Source: Thermosphaera aggregans DSM 11486
GTDB lineage: Archaea > Thermoproteota > Thermoprotei_A > Sulfolobales > Desulfurococcaceae
Length of the DNA stretch: 64,000 nucleotides
Assembly: GCF_000092185.1 (NCBI RefSeq)
Contig: NC_014160.1
Location: 1,240,001 to 1,304,000 of the forward strand
Direction: 5' to 3'
Part shown: positions 4,566 through 62,623 of the stretch, piece after piece
Layout: the number at the start of each line of letters is the position of its first letter
Position numbering within the stretch: position 1 is the stretch's first letter
Program-made: the position numbers and the translations under genes
The notes under the pieces: generated by a model
What the model was told of the DNA's origin: nothing
What the model saw: the letters and a program-made list of their open reading frames with translations, nothing else
Database searches by the model: none

Positions 4566-5852
4566 GTGATATGTTTGACAGTCAAGTTAAGGATTTTAGG
4601 CGGCGGTAGGGAGGTAGGCAGGGCGGCGTACCTTCTAGAAGGCAGGGAGAGAGTACTGTTTGACTACGGGGTAAACTTTGATGAGAAGGATCTCCCGCAG
4701 CTACCTCTTCACGTGAGGCCTGTCGACCTGGATGCCGTTGTAATCTCGCACGCCCACCTAGACCATGTGGGGGCGGCTCCATACCTGTTCATCACCGGTA
4801 AACCGAAAATATATGCTACGCGTCCAACCCTCGACATAGCCAGGCTCCTAACCATAGACTTCCTCAAGCTCAACGCCGCAGTGATCGAGTACGACATGCT
4901 AGAGTTCGAGAAAATGTACTCTAGCACGGTCTTCGTCGACTATCAGGAGTCTGTTGAGCAGGGTTTCAAACTAGTGTTTACGAATGCGGGGCACATTCTA
5001 GGTAGCACCATGGTCTACCTTGAGACCTCAACAGGTGAGAAAATCCTCTACACCGGAGACGTGAACAACATTTCCACCTGGACGCTGTCAGGGGCTGATT
5101 TCCTCCCCGTGGGTGTTGACACCATTATAATGGAGTCAACCTACGGCGGTAGGAACCATCCCAAGAGGCATCTAGTTGAGAAAAGGTTTGTCGAGACGGT
5201 TGAGGAGGTCGTGGACAAGGGTGGCACAGTGCTCATCCCTGCCTTCAGTGTTGGCAGGAGTCAGGAATTGATGACCCTCCTCACGAGCGAGCTACCATAC
5301 GTTGACATCTACATTGACGGGATGGTTAAGGACGTCAGTGAGATTTATTTGAAGCATAGGAAGTTCCTAAGGGATCCCGGCTTGTTCATGAAAACCGTGG
5401 AGAACGTTAACTTCGTCACAAAGGCAAGCGAGAGAAAGAAGCTTGTCAGCAAACCCTGCGTGATAATAGCCTCCGCTGGGATGTTGAAGGGCGGTCCAAG
5501 CGTATACTATTTTAAGAAAATAGCTGAAAACCCAAGGAACGCTGTACTCTTAGTGAGCTATCAAGCGCCAGCGAGCAACGGTCACAAGCTCCTGGAGGAG
5601 GGCAGGCTACCGGAGCTAGAGCTGAACGAGGTTAAGGCAAGGGTTGAATGGTATGATTTCTCCAGCCATGCGGGAAGGGACGGTCTCGCAGAGATTGCCG
5701 AGAAGTATAAGGCAAGCTTGAAGAACGTTATCCTGATCCACGGAGGCGAAGATGATCAGGAGGTTCTTAAGAAGGAGTTAGCCGAGAGGCTTGGGGGAGA
5801 CGTTAAAATCGTAACGCCTAAGACCGGTGACGAAGTAGTCTTAAGCCCGTGA
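4566..5852 (+). CDS. beta-CASP ribonuclease, aCPSF2 type
   Basis: Metallo-beta-lactamase/beta-CASP nuclease for RNA 3'-end processing or decay. Visible motifs are HAHLDHVG (metal site), NAGHILGS, YTGDVN, ESTYGG (start of the beta-CASP domain), PAFSVGRSQEL, and FSSHAGRDGL near the C-terminus. At 428 residues it lacks the N-terminal KH domains of aCPSF1, which places it with the shorter aCPSF2-like enzymes (endo- and 5'-3' exonuclease activity is known for the group). The start is ambiguous: GTG 4566 or TTG 4575, with a GGAG about 12-20 bp upstream. It is divergent from nac and monocistronic before tRNA-Asn. Confidence 0.9.
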   Translation: MICLTVKLRILGGGREVGRAAYLLEGRERVLFDYGVNFDEKDLPQLPLHVRPVDLDAVVISHAHLDHVGAAPYLFITGKPKIYATRPTLDIARLLTIDFLKLNAAVIEYDMLEFEKMYSSTVFVDYQESVEQGFKLVFTNAGHILGSTMVYLETSTGEKILYTGDVNNISTWTLSGADFLPVGVDTIIMESTYGGRNHPKRHLVEKRFVETVEEVVDKGGTVLIPAFSVGRSQELMTLLTSELPYVDIYIDGMVKDVSEIYLKHRKFLRDPGLFMKTVENVNFVTKASERKKLVSKPCVIIASAGMLKGGPSVYYFKKIAENPRNAVLLVSYQAPASNGHKLLEEGRLPELELNEVKARVEWYDFSSHAGRDGLAEIAEKYKASLKNVILIHGGEDDQEVLKKELAERLGGDVKIVTPKTGDEVVLSP

Positions 5853-5864
5853 GAAACTGATTAG

Positions 5865-5998
5865 CGCCGGGGCGGGGACTCGAACCCCGGACCACCGGGT
5901 GTCCGCCATACCAGGCTTTTCGAAACGGGTTTCTGCAGGGGGCTGGTTTACAACCCCCTTTAACAGCCCGGCGCTCTACCGTGCTGAGCTACCCCGGC
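5865..5998 (-). tRNA. tRNA-Asn (GTT) with 60-nt intron
   Basis: The acceptor stem GCCGGGG pairs with CCCCGGC, with G73 as discriminator; no CCA is encoded. The D stem is GCTC/GAGC and the T arm is CGGGG TTCGAGT CCCCG. The anticodon stem CCGGG/CCCGG encloses the loop C-U-G-U-U-A with anticodon GUU, interrupted after position 37 by an intron at 5901-5960. The mature tRNA is 74 nt. Exon boundaries (5' exon 5961-5998, 3' exon 5865-5900) are inferred from the canonical 37/38 position cut by archaeal splicing endonuclease. Confidence 0.93.
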
Positions 5999-27745: not shown

Positions 27746-27847
27746 GAAAGATTCGTGTTTTTGAAAAGGTTTTCAACACATGCGCCGGACGCGTAGTGTT
27801 CATATAGCGTGATTAGTAAGGTTATTGTAAGGGAGAAGGGTTTGGAA

Positions 27848-28525
27848 ATGGTTAAGAAAGCGGTGCCCTTAGCTCTGGTACTAATTCTCACCGCTTTAAT
27901 CACTGTAGAGGCAACCTGGGTTTACATAAGAGAGTTCAGCGATGCGTCTGGAGATATCGAAAACTGCCCCGTATATGCCGACATATTAATCACCGGATAC
28001 GGGTTCAATGAGACTCACGTGGGCTTTAACATTACTGTTAACGGGAATGTCCCGCTTCCATCATCCAGTACTTACTGGTATGGAGTATTAATAGACAGCG
28101 ACAATAATCCTTCAACAGGCCTCGCCCACTGGACACTCATAGGCGTGGATTACCTCCTGGAGGCATGGATTGATACTACTACTGTGTCAACTCCGGGTGC
28201 TAAGCTCTATCGATACGTAGGCGATGGTTCAAGCTGGGAGTGGAGCGAGGTGAGTGATGCAGAAGTATCAGCTAGTGTTTACGGGAAAACCGTAACCAAT
28301 GACACGATAGAGCTGGTGGTTGGCAAGAAATATTTGACACCGCTTAGCGGGGAGATAGGCTTCACGATCTATGTAAGCAATTCTTCTGGGGCAACATGCG
28401 ACACAGCTGTCGTAGCATCGGGGGGCGAGGGCCCCGTGCCCGTTCCCGAGCCCGCCCTACTGGTAGCTGCATCCGTAGTGATAGTTTCAGCGTTATCCTT
28501 GTTCCTCATCAAGGATAAGCTGTAG
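27848..28525 (+). CDS. secreted protein with PVPEP C-terminal anchor, second copy
   Basis: A 225-residue exported protein. Residues 1-22 form a signal peptide (MVKKAV, then a Leu/Ile-rich core). The mature domain is a beta-sandwich-like sequence with WYGVLIDSDNNPSTGLAHWT, typical of CBM9/DOMON-like extracellular domains. The tail is PVPVPEP, a hydrophobic stretch of about 18 residues and the final KDKL. The tail layout matches the gene at 15607, while the domains differ. ATG 27848 puts the signal peptide at the N-terminus; a GTG at 27809 would add 13 residues before it. A TATA-like CATATAG is at about 27800. Confidence 0.8.
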   Translation: MVKKAVPLALVLILTALITVEATWVYIREFSDASGDIENCPVYADILITGYGFNETHVGFNITVNGNVPLPSSSTYWYGVLIDSDNNPSTGLAHWTLIGVDYLLEAWIDTTTVSTPGAKLYRYVGDGSSWEWSEVSDAEVSASVYGKTVTNDTIELVVGKKYLTPLSGEIGFTIYVSNSSGATCDTAVVASGGEGPVPVPEPALLVAASVVIVSALSLFLIKDKL

Positions 28526-28954: not shown

Positions 28955-30991
28955 ATGATTGGGGTGGCTTCTACGTCTGAGTCTCGTGAGTATTCGGAGA
29001 TCGAGAAATATCTTTACTATCCTGAAACCGAGGAGCGAAGGCTTTACAACGTGGGCTTCCTCAAGATAATAGCGGTCGTCCTCGTCATTGCAAGCGTTGT
29101 GGGCGTTTTCGCCGCGGCCCGTTACTCGCCGATCCCGGTTGTAAGGATTAGCGATGTCCAGGGCAACGTGTTGATGAACTATGCCACTTTCTACGTTGAG
29201 GGGGTTGTCGTGGAACCTCCACGGGTGGATTACTCCGGGGGGAAGCTGAGGATTACGCTCACAGTCAACGATAACTCACCGCCCGTGAGCCTTCCAGTCT
29301 ATGCTTACGACCCGCTCGCGTCCGAGATGATTGAGGCTAGGAAAATACCTTTCATAGGGGACAGGGTGAGGCTTCTTGTCCAGCTGAGGGTGAGGGAGGA
29401 TTTCGCTTACGCCTATCTTCAGGATTTACGGGGGATTGAAATACTCGAGAGGCCTGGGCGGGGTGATGGAGGGGTTTACGTTGACTCGCTGGAAGGTGTT
29501 GCCGAGTACTCGTATGTTTGTGTAAAGGGCTTGGTTAAAAGCCCGCGTAATGTTTCAGCAGGATTATTGTTCGATGTTGCAACCTCCAGGGGTGCTGTAA
29601 CAGTGTTGATACCAACTATAGTAAACCATGTCTACGGGGGCGATGTTGCACCGGTCATCTCAACTATTTCTGCGGGAGGAGTGCCCGTGGACGTTTGCGG
29701 CGTAGTCTACTACTACAGGGGTACTTCGCCAGAGATCGTTGTCCGCGAGCTCGAAGACATCAGCGTGGGAGTAATACCCGCGGCTGAAACAGTAGGCTTC
29801 GGCGACCTAGTGTTCAACACAGCCTTATACGAGGGGCAGACGGTTAAGACGCAGGCAAGGTTCCTCGGAGTCTACTGCGAGGCTTTCGACGACCCGTGCA
29901 GGCTTGTCTTCGAGGATGTTGAGGGCCAGGGCATTACAGGAGACATAATGATGCCCAGGACGCTGATGGCGGCCGTCATAGACCCGTGGACAATGGGCTC
30001 CGGCACGGTGTTCAACTTAACGGTCAACGTTGTCAACTCAACATACATTGCCGCGTACGGTGCAGACCCGGTTGAGGTTAAACCCCCGTTTGAAGCCAGA
30101 AGTGTTGAGGAAGCCCTCTCGCAGGAGAGGGGCAAGATTATAGTGCTGAAAAACGTGTCCGTGCTATCTTCAAGCGTAACAAGCGGTGGTAGCTGGAGGA
30201 TTTACGTTACCGATCCATCGGGCTTCAACATACTGGTGTTCGTGCCCTCCACGGTGGCTACGTCGATGGGGTTTGATATCCCGTCCCAGGGTAGCTACAT
30301 CTCGGTAGCAGGGTACAGGCATGTCTACGGGAGCACGGACGAGATTGTTGTCTACACTGTGAACGGGGTTGTCGTCGAGACGGCCCCGCCACCGCCGCCC
30401 CCAGCCTTCCTCGAGATAGATATAAAGAGCGTGCCAGGCTATGTCGGCCGCAACGTCTCGTTCACAGGACTCTTCTACGCAATACGCTACGACAGCTCCC
30501 TTAGAATATATTATGTAGAAGTCAGGTCGAGCGATGAAGAATTCGCTGTGAACATATCCATGAAAAGGGAGCAGCTGATATCTTTCCTGGATCCAGCCCT
30601 GGTGGGATGGAAATCGCTCATCAGGATCAACGGCACCGTGAAATCGGCCAACCTGGTTGAGTATGTGTACGGCGAAGTGGTTCAGCTCAGGGATCCGTTG
30701 AAAGTAACTGTCCAGGAAGCGCTGGGGCTACCTCTAGGCAGGCCTCTTGTAGTGCTCAACGCTACCGTGGTCAGCTCAAGGGTTCTCTCAGGGAGCTGGG
30801 AGATCAATATAACGGATTCCACGGGCGCGATCATAACAGTGTTCATACCTTCATCAACAGTCAGCGAGCTCGGCATGACCTCTCCACCTCCTAGTGGGGC
30901 AGTAGTCAGGGTGGCAGGGTACAGGGATGTTTACGCTGCTAAACAAGAGATTGTCGTCATCTCCAAGAACAGTTTCACAATTCTCGGGTAG
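28955..30991 (+). CDS. membrane-anchored protein with multiple OB-fold-like repeats
   Basis: A 678-residue protein. A short cytoplasmic N-terminus is followed by one membrane helix (residues about 34-57, GFLKIIAVVLVIASVVGVFA), then about six OB-like beta domains on the outside. Two repeats align well: KIIVLKNVSVLSSSV...SWRIYVTDPSG (about 393) and PLVVLNATVVSSRV...SWEINITDSTG (about 600), each ending in an AGYR-VY motif. A run of seven prolines separates repeats 4 and 5. OB domains of this sort usually bind nucleic acid or partner proteins, but no ligand can be named. First gene of a three-gene operon; the next start is 10 bp downstream. Confidence 0.72.
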   Translation: MIGVASTSESREYSEIEKYLYYPETEERRLYNVGFLKIIAVVLVIASVVGVFAAARYSPIPVVRISDVQGNVLMNYATFYVEGVVVEPPRVDYSGGKLRITLTVNDNSPPVSLPVYAYDPLASEMIEARKIPFIGDRVRLLVQLRVREDFAYAYLQDLRGIEILERPGRGDGGVYVDSLEGVAEYSYVCVKGLVKSPRNVSAGLLFDVATSRGAVTVLIPTIVNHVYGGDVAPVISTISAGGVPVDVCGVVYYYRGTSPEIVVRELEDISVGVIPAAETVGFGDLVFNTALYEGQTVKTQARFLGVYCEAFDDPCRLVFEDVEGQGITGDIMMPRTLMAAVIDPWTMGSGTVFNLTVNVVNSTYIAAYGADPVEVKPPFEARSVEEALSQERGKIIVLKNVSVLSSSVTSGGSWRIYVTDPSGFNILVFVPSTVATSMGFDIPSQGSYISVAGYRHVYGSTDEIVVYTVNGVVVETAPPPPPPAFLEIDIKSVPGYVGRNVSFTGLFYAIRYDSSLRIYYVEVRSSDEEFAVNISMKREQLISFLDPALVGWKSLIRINGTVKSANLVEYVYGEVVQLRDPLKVTVQEALGLPLGRPLVVLNATVVSSRVLSGSWEINITDSTGAIITVFIPSSTVSELGMTSPPPSGAVVRVAGYRDVYAAKQEIVVISKNSFTILG

Positions 30992-31001
30992 GTGAAGGAT
31001 C

Positions 31002-32336
31002 GTGGAGGCTTTAATCAACCCTGTTGAAGTATTGGCGTGGGGTTTAACAGGCACTCTCATGGGCCTGATGCTGTCGTGGATTCCGGGGCTACACATCTTC
31101 AACCTCCTAGTCCTGGTTTTCGCCCTTGCCCCAGGGTTCATAACCTCAAACATCTACGCCCTGCCATACTTCGCCCTCGGAGCCGTGGTAGGGTTCTCCT
31201 TCGCCAGCTCCATTGCTTCAACATACCTCAGCGTCTCAGACGAGTCGATGATGCTCATGCTCTTCCCCTCGCAAAGGTATCTGCTCGCTGGAAGAGGCCA
31301 CAGGGCCGTACTGCTCTATCTCATAGGCGCGTTGACAGGGGCGGTTTTCCTCGCCGTCTTCATGGCAACCATCGGGGTTTACGCCATGCCCATCATATAC
31401 AATCTTTTCAGCCCATACTACTGGTTCATCCTCCTGGCAATAGTCGTCTTCATGTTCATGAGCGAGTACCCTAAGGAGGCTGACTACGGGAGGACGCCCA
31501 GGGAGAAGCTCTGGCTTGCATGGAGGCAGGTTCTCGGCGGGGTCCTAGTCTTCTTCGCCTCCGGCATACTGGGCTTCATAGCGTCCTACTCGGGTCTTCT
31601 AAGAATTGAGGCAGCGTACGCTAGGCTCACGCCCTTGTTCATAGGCTTCTTCGGCTTCCCATGGGTTTTAAGAAACATCATCTCCAAGAGGAGCATCCCC
31701 AGGCAGGATACGAGGGATTTCGTGGAGACCTCTCCCGGCGCAGTCATCAACGGGAGTGCCTCGGGGATAATAGGGGGAGGGATAGCAGCGTTCTTCCCCA
31801 TTATAACGGGTGGGATGGGTGCGCTGGTTGGAGGACACATGGCTAGTAGCAGGGGTGATGACGCCTTCCTGGTCAGTCAGGGGGCTGCTAGGACAGTATA
31901 CTATACTGGAGCACTGTTCTTCCTATTCCATCCGACCATGAGGATCACCAGGGGTTCAGTGGCTTGGCTTGTTGGAGGGGTTTACACGCCTAAGACGTGG
32001 GCGGAATTCTACGTTGGAGCAGCCTTCATCATTTTAGCAGCGGCCCTATCCTTCGCGGTCACCCTATACTTGTCTAAAGCAGTGGCGTGGCTTCTAACCA
32101 GGGTTAGCTATGTCTACATATCAGTTGCCACGCTGGCGTTCCTGGTGGGACTAGTGTTCTACTTGACGGGCCCTGTGGGGTTGGCTTTAATGCTTGCCGC
32201 GGCGAGCGTTGGCTTCGCGGCAATGGTTTTCAACACGAGGCTGAGCTACTGCCTTGGTTCCCTGATCCTCCCGGTTCTAGCGAACACTATGGGGTTCGCG
32301 GGCTTCTTCTTCGGACTGCTCGGGCTGGGTGGTTGA
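31002..32336 (+). CDS. TctA-like membrane permease (COG1784 type)
   Basis: A polytopic membrane protein of 444 residues with about 10-12 helices. The N-terminal TGTLMGLMLSWIPGLH and the repeated GSASGIIGGGIAAFFPIITGG segment are the paired glycine/proline motifs of the TctA family, whose bacterial members carry tricarboxylates with a periplasmic binding protein. No TctB or TctC partner is adjacent; instead it lies between OB-fold proteins, so the transported substrate is unknown. The start is GTG 31002. It overlaps the next gene by 4 bp (ATGA-like), strong evidence for one transcript. Confidence 0.8.
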   Translation: MEALINPVEVLAWGLTGTLMGLMLSWIPGLHIFNLLVLVFALAPGFITSNIYALPYFALGAVVGFSFASSIASTYLSVSDESMMLMLFPSQRYLLAGRGHRAVLLYLIGALTGAVFLAVFMATIGVYAMPIIYNLFSPYYWFILLAIVVFMFMSEYPKEADYGRTPREKLWLAWRQVLGGVLVFFASGILGFIASYSGLLRIEAAYARLTPLFIGFFGFPWVLRNIISKRSIPRQDTRDFVETSPGAVINGSASGIIGGGIAAFFPIITGGMGALVGGHMASSRGDDAFLVSQGAARTVYYTGALFFLFHPTMRITRGSVAWLVGGVYTPKTWAEFYVGAAFIILAAALSFAVTLYLSKAVAWLLTRVSYVYISVATLAFLVGLVFYLTGPVGLALMLAAASVGFAAMVFNTRLSYCLGSLILPVLANTMGFAGFFFGLLGLGG

Positions 32337-33736
32337 GGATGAGAGGGTGGACGCACTACTTGTCCGGGCTGGCCATGGCGATGTTCTTTCCGCCGCTGCT
32401 CTCGGATCTTGTTAAAGGAGTCATGTGGCCTCTTCTAGCAGGGGTTTCAGCATACCTGCCGGACTTCCTGGACTTCAAGTTCAAGAAGTTCCTGTGGAAA
32501 GTGAATTATGTGGTGGATCCTGCACCGAGGGATCCGTTGAGGAAGCTATCGCCCCGAAGGATAAGGGTTAGCGAGCTCTCTGAGAGCCTGAGGTGGAGGC
32601 TGTTCTACCTGGAGGGGAGGATTGAGGAAGTGTTGGAGGAGAGAGAGGGTTATGCCAGGTTCAAGCTGGCTGATGAAACCGGGTCTGTAATCGTTGTCGC
32701 AAGAGACGGGGATTACTATAAGCTCAGGGGAATCCTAGGACAGAGCCTCAAGGATTTAGCAGCATCGGGCAGGAAGGTGAGGATACCGGGCTACCTGGAG
32801 GTGGGCGGGGACGGCTCCACATACTGGAACGTAGCGGACGCTCCTCACCCGCAGTATATTGCGGACGCTGTTGCTAGAGCTATTGACGAGGCTTATGAGA
32901 CCGGGAGGATGGTCACTGTTAAAATACATAATATAAGGATGCCCGGGGACTTCTACAGGAGGTTCCTAATACAGTATGATCCCAGGAATAGGAGGATAAT
33001 TGTTCACATGGGTCCACTGGTCTCCACGGGCGGCTTACCCCTCGAGGGGACCGAGCCCCCGGAGTATAGGAGGATGGGGGTTGCGGAGACAAAGCACGCG
33101 TTCAGGAAGGTCTACCCGAGGCCGACGGTGATAGATGCCTTCTCAGGCCCCGAGATAGGGTATGAGAGAGTGGGGGATGTGGTCGAGGAAGTGTTCATAC
33201 CGTGGCACAGGGGCTTCTCCCACAGCCTGACGGCGAGCGTGGTGGTCGGCGTGATCACGGGGTTGATAACACTGGTGCTTGGATATGCTAACTGGCCATA
33301 TCTCGCTGTAGCGTCAACGCTGGGCCACGCGATGCATGTTTTAGAGGACCAGTTGGGCTTCATGGGCTCTGTTCTCCTCCCGCCCCTGACGAAGCGGAGG
33401 ATACCTGGGCTGATGCTGGGACCGAGCAGGCAGGGCTTGATAAACTTCGCCACAAACTGGCTGATGCTCGCGCTGATAGCTTGGAACGTCAACAGGTTTA
33501 TGCCTGAAGTATCCCCGGGCACGCCTAAACCCATCGAGCTGTCCAACACTATTCCCGTTACACCCGTGTTCGGGGATGCACTACTGCTCCTCCTGCTAGC
33601 ACTTCCCGCGATCGCGATATATGCGTGGGGCGTGTTCGACAGGAGGAGGTTCATCGCGAAGCAGAAGGAGAGGCTTGAGGAGGAGAAGGCTAAGGAGGCT
33701 GTGGAAGAGGCTTACGAAGAGGTTGGAGGATACTAG
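32333..33736 (+). CDS. YdjM-like membrane hydrolase with inserted OB-like segment
   Basis: A 467-residue membrane protein. The metal-dependent hydrolase fold is indicated by GWTHYLSG near the N-terminus, YLPDFLDF, HRGFSHSLTASV and GHAMHVLEDQ (His/Asp ligands), embedded in membrane helices. Residues about 90-165 are an inserted soluble segment (FYLEGRIEEVLE, FKLADETGSVIVVAR, and GYLEV) that reads as an OB fold. The C-terminus is a charged coiled tail (KQKERLEEEKAKEAVEEA). The parent family has an uncharacterised hydrolase activity. Last gene of the operon, with a 4-bp overlap to the permease. Confidence 0.8.
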   Translation: MRMRGWTHYLSGLAMAMFFPPLLSDLVKGVMWPLLAGVSAYLPDFLDFKFKKFLWKVNYVVDPAPRDPLRKLSPRRIRVSELSESLRWRLFYLEGRIEEVLEEREGYARFKLADETGSVIVVARDGDYYKLRGILGQSLKDLAASGRKVRIPGYLEVGGDGSTYWNVADAPHPQYIADAVARAIDEAYETGRMVTVKIHNIRMPGDFYRRFLIQYDPRNRRIIVHMGPLVSTGGLPLEGTEPPEYRRMGVAETKHAFRKVYPRPTVIDAFSGPEIGYERVGDVVEEVFIPWHRGFSHSLTASVVVGVITGLITLVLGYANWPYLAVASTLGHAMHVLEDQLGFMGSVLLPPLTKRRIPGLMLGPSRQGLINFATNWLMLALIAWNVNRFMPEVSPGTPKPIELSNTIPVTPVFGDALLLLLLALPAIAIYAWGVFDRRRFIAKQKERLEEEKAKEAVEEAYEEVGGY

Positions 33737-33912: not shown

Positions 33913-34377
33913 TTGTGGAGGGAGGGCTTGCTCGCGAGAAGTGTCCTCCAGGGGTTTACTAAGGGATATAGGAACCATCCTCAGCTGGCGAGGTTTAAGA
34001 GGTATGAGAAGCCTCTCGATCTGGTTGACGCTTACCTCTACCAGGTTTACCTCGAGGCTTGCAGAAGAGGCTACAGGTTCAACTCTTCAAAGATCAGGAT
34101 GATTGAGCTTCGCGAAGCAGTAGAGGTGACGCGCGGCCAGCTCGCGTACGAGTTCAACCACTTGCTGGGGAAGCTTGAGAAACGCGACAGGAAATGGTTC
34201 GAGAGGATTAGAGGTGTTGACCCCTGGAGTGTTGAAGCCAACCCTGTCTTCAAGATCGTTGAAGGGGGTATTGAAGAGTGGGAGAGGCTGAAGAAATCCA
34301 GGGGTAGTGCGGGGCGGGGAAGATGTGGGGCATTCTTAAATACTAGTGGCGGAATAGTTTGCCTCAAGGGTGGTTAA
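33913..34377 (+). CDS. pyrimidine-dimer DNA glycosylase, T4 endonuclease V family
   Basis: A repair enzyme of 154 residues that cuts the glycosyl bond at UV-induced cyclobutane dimers in family members. Recognisable are the opening MWREGLLARSVLQGFTKGYR and HPQLARF, then AYLYQVYLEACRRGYRF. T4 endonuclease V uses its N-terminal residue and a Glu as catalysts; here the second residue is Trp. The start is TTG 33913. Its stop is followed at once by the ATG of a small membrane protein (TAA then ATG), so the two are coupled. Confidence 0.8.
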   Translation: MWREGLLARSVLQGFTKGYRNHPQLARFKRYEKPLDLVDAYLYQVYLEACRRGYRFNSSKIRMIELREAVEVTRGQLAYEFNHLLGKLEKRDRKWFERIRGVDPWSVEANPVFKIVEGGIEEWERLKKSRGSAGRGRCGAFLNTSGGIVCLKGG

Positions 34378-62523: not shown

Positions 62524-62623
62524 CGCCGGGGGCGGGATTCGAACCCGCGCGCCCCGGAAGGGGCACTGGCTGACCGGGGAATATTCTCCAGGCCAGCCCC
62601 TTAGACCGCTCGGGCACCCCGGC
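62524..62623 (-). tRNA. tRNA-Ser (GGA) with a very short intron-like insertion
   Basis: Type II tRNA. The acceptor GCCGGGG pairs with CCCCGGC, and the discriminator is G, as in archaeal serine tRNA. The anticodon stem CUGGC/GUCAG encloses 17 nt instead of 7 (C-U-G-G-A-G then 11 more bases), so the anticodon is GGA followed by about 10 extra bases, consistent with a tiny intron at 37/38. The variable arm (GTGCCCC/GGGGCGC, loop UUCC) and T arm GCGGG TTCGAAT CCCGC are normal. Mature length about 90. Confidence 0.88.

Follow-up and report, generated by a model that had tools for sequence, protein, structure and literature searches.

How DNA passes across the archaeal membrane is an open question, for which a TctA-like protein is a candidate transporter (PMC10133366). 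In Methanococcus maripaludis, two adjacent genes, MMJJ_13020 (an OB-fold protein with one membrane helix) and MMJJ_13030 (a TctA-like protein with 11 helices), were each shown by a transposon screen, clean deletions, and complementation to be essential for natural transformation (PMC10133366). A TctA-like homologue is likewise essential for natural transformation of Methanoculleus thermophilus, and the authors raised the possibility that DNA transport in archaea, in which ComEC homologues are not identifiable, falls to the TctA-like protein (PMC10133366). YdjM is absent from this account of the Methanococcus transformation genes (PMC10133366), and our search of the literature found no description of a YdjM gene added to an OB and TctA pair. 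In bacteria, ComEC unites an extracellular OB domain, a membrane channel, and a metal hydrolase (PMC12455585).

Here, we describe a three-gene locus of Thermosphaera aggregans DSM 11486 that extends this anatomy. It lies in the window, the whole 64,000-nucleotide stretch analysed, which belongs to a genome consisting of one contig of 1,316,595 bases. The three genes are as follows.

Gene A, 28955..30991, + strand: anchored in the membrane near its N terminus (residues 33-57), with a tandem array of six OB-like domains predicted to be extracellular
Gene B, 31002..32336, + strand: TctA-family permease of the long class, 444 aa
Gene C, 32333..33736, + strand: membrane protein of the YdjM family that carries an OB insert and conserved candidate His/Asp metal ligands

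The spacing given in the initial annotation is exact: 10 bp separate the end of A (30991) from the start of B (31002), and the last 4 bp of B are shared with the start of C (32333). The trio fits the defining anatomy of the archaeal transformation pair, in which a single-helix OB-fold gene stands next to a TctA-like permease. As with MMJJ_13020 and MMJJ_13030, neither TctB nor TctC adjoins the genes. This placement follows gene anatomy; at the sequence level, A and B were compared with the short-class pair of Thermococci treated below. Unlike the Methanococcus pair, the trio carries a long OB array in A and is continued by a YdjM-family gene with an OB domain of its own.

The OB domains of A become visible mainly through its orthologues. 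A Pfam search with the window's own gene A is nearly empty, returning a weak OB match (E=0.05), whereas PF01336 (OB) is matched by 13 of 14 aligned A proteins (best 2.5e-25). The AlphaFold2 model of A (mean pLDDT 86.5) contains a single N-terminal helix at residues 33-57, followed by six OB-like beta units at about 78-165, 187-271, 296-381, 395-475, 500-577, and 597-676, and an iterated repeat profile seeded with the modelled units also recovered six. Together, these lines of evidence bear out the earlier description of A as one membrane helix with about six OB-like repeats. The charges around the helix suggest a topology in which the N terminus of A lies inside the cell and its OB array outside. 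By the repeat profile, the number of OB units ranges from one in L081, the most divergent locus, with an A of 272 aa, to eight in Thermococcus (about 990-1030 aa). A single-sequence search with gene A alone reached 9 of 99 relatives, a figure that understates its spread. Structure searches with the model of A retrieved for the most part OB proteins that bind DNA (HIN domains with dsDNA, CST, RADX, RPA, and SSB), a bias that in part reflects the OB fold itself. The OB domain of ComEC, DUF4131, is weakly matched by 4 of the 14 A orthologues (best 1.4e-6, below the curated cut-off) over a region comprising the anchor and first OB unit; the window's A has no DUF4131 match.

Gene B belongs to the TctA family (PF01970, E=3.4e-41) and is the single TctA of the host genome, where only the long class occurs. 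Searches of the neighbourhoods in the window and in related loci detected no TctB- or TctC-like genes beside the trio, so that B is, as first annotated, a TctA-like permease without either partner next to it. The clear family membership of B is what would favour a conventional TctA-type carrier of organic acids, with A as a substrate-binding partner replacing TctC and C as an unrelated passenger. We consider this quite improbable and reject plain organic-acid transport as the main reading: compared with TctABC, the trio has a TctA-family member in common but differs in its OB array and YdjM protein, A does not have a TctC-like fold, no TctB adjoins B, and C is inherited and lost along with A and B (see below). 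Moreover, an archaeal OB and TctA pair is needed for DNA uptake (PMC10133366). No solved structural relative of B was found, the structure matches of the trio being confined to its OB parts. Homology of B to ComEC is also unsupported, as B is a TctA and the competence channel domain PF03772 has no match in the genome.

The third gene belongs to the YdjM family (PF04307, E=3.2e-11; 43.5 bits against a curated cut-off of 29). Its OB segment is weakly matched in the window (residues 93-132, E=0.05) and more strongly in orthologues from Thermococcus and Thermofilaceae (3.4e-6 and 7.3e-6), and AlphaFold2 predicts one OB-like unit at about 89-165 (pLDDT 85). The proposal that C is YdjM-like with an extra OB-like segment thus holds, and OB folds are predicted by AlphaFold2 in A and C alike, as had been anticipated. 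C differs from the rest of its family by this OB domain and by an additional beta-rich segment inserted between the membrane parts. The OB insert is present in most lineages and absent in L081, where C has 339 aa. Seven His/Asp residues (H6, D42, D45, H290, H295, H333, and D337, taking the ATG at 32339 as residue 1) are invariant across 12 diverse sequences, among them the C that lacks the OB insert, as would be expected for a candidate metal site. Charges and hydropathy hint faintly at a cytoplasmic position of both the active site and the OB insert of C, in which case DNA would reach C only after crossing the membrane. We know of no nuclease activity in the YdjM family, and a structure search found no solved relative of the YdjM part. 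A second, ordinary-sized YdjM-family gene is encoded elsewhere in the host genome (G000:C1:636940-637371, ~162 aa, E=2.3e-19).

The three genes form a real unit that is inherited and lost together. Wherever the contig permits reading, the trio occurs in identical order in Desulfurococcales, Thermofilaceae, Geoarchaeota, further archaeal MAGs, and Thermococcus; the linkage noticed in a single genome therefore recurs in several lineages. Long-class B is found in 30 of 115 genomes of the Thermococcus phylum, and all 30 of these also carry C; the sole C without B in this set is fragmentary and lies at the edge of a 3.4 kb contig. In Thermococcus, the trio occupies a recurring site that bears the scars of loss. 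Five genomes of the phylum without long-class B retain no more of C than a C-terminal stretch, as listed here.

Remnant of C, L155: 10127-10794
Remnant of C, L156: 10061-10321
Remnant of C, L157: 9696-9869
Remnant of C, L158: 8950-9078
Remnant of C, L160: 9669-9881

In the four genomes whose surroundings were read, the remnant is flanked by the same genes as the intact operon, and in L155 an OB fragment of A adjoins it. Such remains of C and A at the operon site are to be expected if the operon was lost as a whole on repeated occasions. Where the trio persists, its neighbour genes vary between genera. Between two Thermosphaera genomes, dN/dS is 0.12 for A, 0.04 for B, and 0.08 for C; these low values indicate purifying selection and thus that all three genes are maintained. 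Interruptions of A or B in a few MAGs (G035; A of G016) may be due to assembly error or decay.

A second, related module was encountered in Thermococcales and related genomes, which encode a shorter TctA of about 375-400 aa. In most loci read, the gene immediately before this short TctA encodes an OB-like protein with a single helix, giving the same order as in the trio (e.g., L126 5717-7992). Profile comparisons link both components across the two classes, the long and short TctA at E=5e-38 and A with the OB protein of the short pair at 97.6% (E=3e-12). The short-class pair is thus homologous to A and B; it differs in its TctA of ~375 aa, in the lack of a YdjM gene behind it, and in the frequent presence of a KaiC-family ATPase upstream. 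A gene matching the C profile follows the short TctA in none of the loci read, which indicates that C is an addition rather than part of the core.

KaiC-family ATPases recur around both modules. In Thermococcales, one lies directly upstream of the short pair (L126 8060-8833, L128 2446-3962, L133 2812-4396, L136 2454-3978, and L138 8265-9816); in many Thermococcus loci, one lies a few genes from the trio (L051 9536-10360), and in L081 it adjoins the trio (4657-5379). These ATPases might power or regulate the module. An obligate role was rejected because they are absent from the trio loci of Desulfurococcales.

In a tree that also contains some long branches, the long and short TctA classes split with full support, and many Thermococcus genomes hold both. 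Relative to the shorter pair, the trio stands as a deep sister class, and it may have another substrate. Developed further, this becomes the foremost competing explanation: a DNA-uptake paralogue that has shifted to another polymer or conjugate (surface polysaccharide, lipid-linked phosphate, or RNA), in which A would be the surface binder, B the transporter, and C a lipid- or phosphoester-hydrolysing enzyme. The coexistence and clean separation of the two classes fit such a shift, as does the fact that, among the loci read, the YdjM gene accompanies the long class alone, and OB folds bind not only nucleic acids but also proteins and sugars. We nevertheless judge it unlikely, if well worth keeping in mind, given that genes for making sugars or lipids are not among the recurrent neighbours of the trio and that DNA-binding OB proteins predominate in the structure searches with A, partly a fold effect as noted above.

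On balance, the trio is probably a membrane DNA-uptake module of the archaeal OB and TctA type, in which A captures, B translocates, and C processes DNA. As an anchored surface protein, A would capture incoming nucleic acid with its tandem OB domains and hand it over to B, which would serve as the channel or carrier moving it across the membrane; C would then be a membrane-bound, metal-dependent phosphoesterase or nuclease that processes DNA at the membrane with the aid of its own OB domain. That DNA is the substrate is suggested by analogy with the published Methanococcus genetics on the OB and TctA pair, and inward transport and nuclease activity of C are likewise presumed. The initial annotation had supposed that the OB proteins replace the missing binding protein and that the operon handles an extracellular polymer or nucleic acid at the membrane. 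Both suppositions fit our results, with nucleic acid better supported than a generic polymer: because the Methanococcus pair is needed for transformation, the nucleic acid reading is the more specific one. The accompanying statement that no function had been characterised was mistaken as regards the core pair, which is required for natural transformation of M. maripaludis.

Direction is the point on which an opposite view can be built, in which the trio exports DNA for release or intercellular transfer. Sequence does not tell direction, and other archaeal DNA-transfer systems, Ced/Ted, are known (PMC9905601); against export, the only genetic data that we found for an OB and TctA pair concern uptake (PMC10133366). 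Export thus seems a shade more improbable still than organic-acid transport, and both rank as less likely than the shifted paralogue. Antiviral defence was also considered and rejected, as PADLOC gave no match for A, B, or C.

A bolder form of the DNA-uptake reading can be stated by comparison with bacterial ComEC. The trio follows the same logic of OB domain, channel, and hydrolase, but divides among three genes what ComEC holds in one protein, and draws its channel and hydrolase from unrelated families. In addition, the nuclease of ComEC faces outward, whereas the hydrolase of the trio may face inward. No match to ComEC, including PF03772, was found in the host genome, and no metallo-beta-lactamase domain in A, B, or C; the genome does encode three secretion/pilus-type ATPases above cut-off. 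It is conceivable, albeit rather doubtful, that in this trio archaea have arrived by convergence at a full equivalent of ComEC, made up of a tandem-OB receptor, a TctA-type channel, and a YdjM-type membrane nuclease. If this is true, DNA uptake of the OB and TctA type would reach Thermoproteota, and the YdjM family would gain a function.

Independently of this stronger proposal, the conserved trio of Desulfurococcales, Thermofilaceae, Geoarchaeota, and Thermococcus gives the candidate machinery a broader distribution and points to one particular additional component, the putative metal hydrolase C. To our knowledge, transformation has not been reported for Thermosphaera. Thermococcus kodakarensis is amenable to genetic work and undergoes natural transformation, and one trio-bearing genome (G605) is presumably that of this species; the uptake question is thus directly testable.

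Several features of the surroundings may be recorded. Directly behind the trio, at 33913-34377 of the window, lies a gene resembling pyrimidine-dimer DNA glycosylases (PF03013, 2.3e-12), which is shared with the other trio-bearing Thermosphaera genome (L039) and absent from this position in other genera. Upstream, at 27809-28525, is a gene for a protein that is hydrophobic at its N- and C-terminal ends and without a family match; a similar gene also precedes the trio in L039. Finally, two tRNA genes of the window, at 5865-5998 and 62524-62623 (- strand), were detected by Rfam and not by ARAGORN, and their lengths of 134 and 100 bases suggest that they contain introns.
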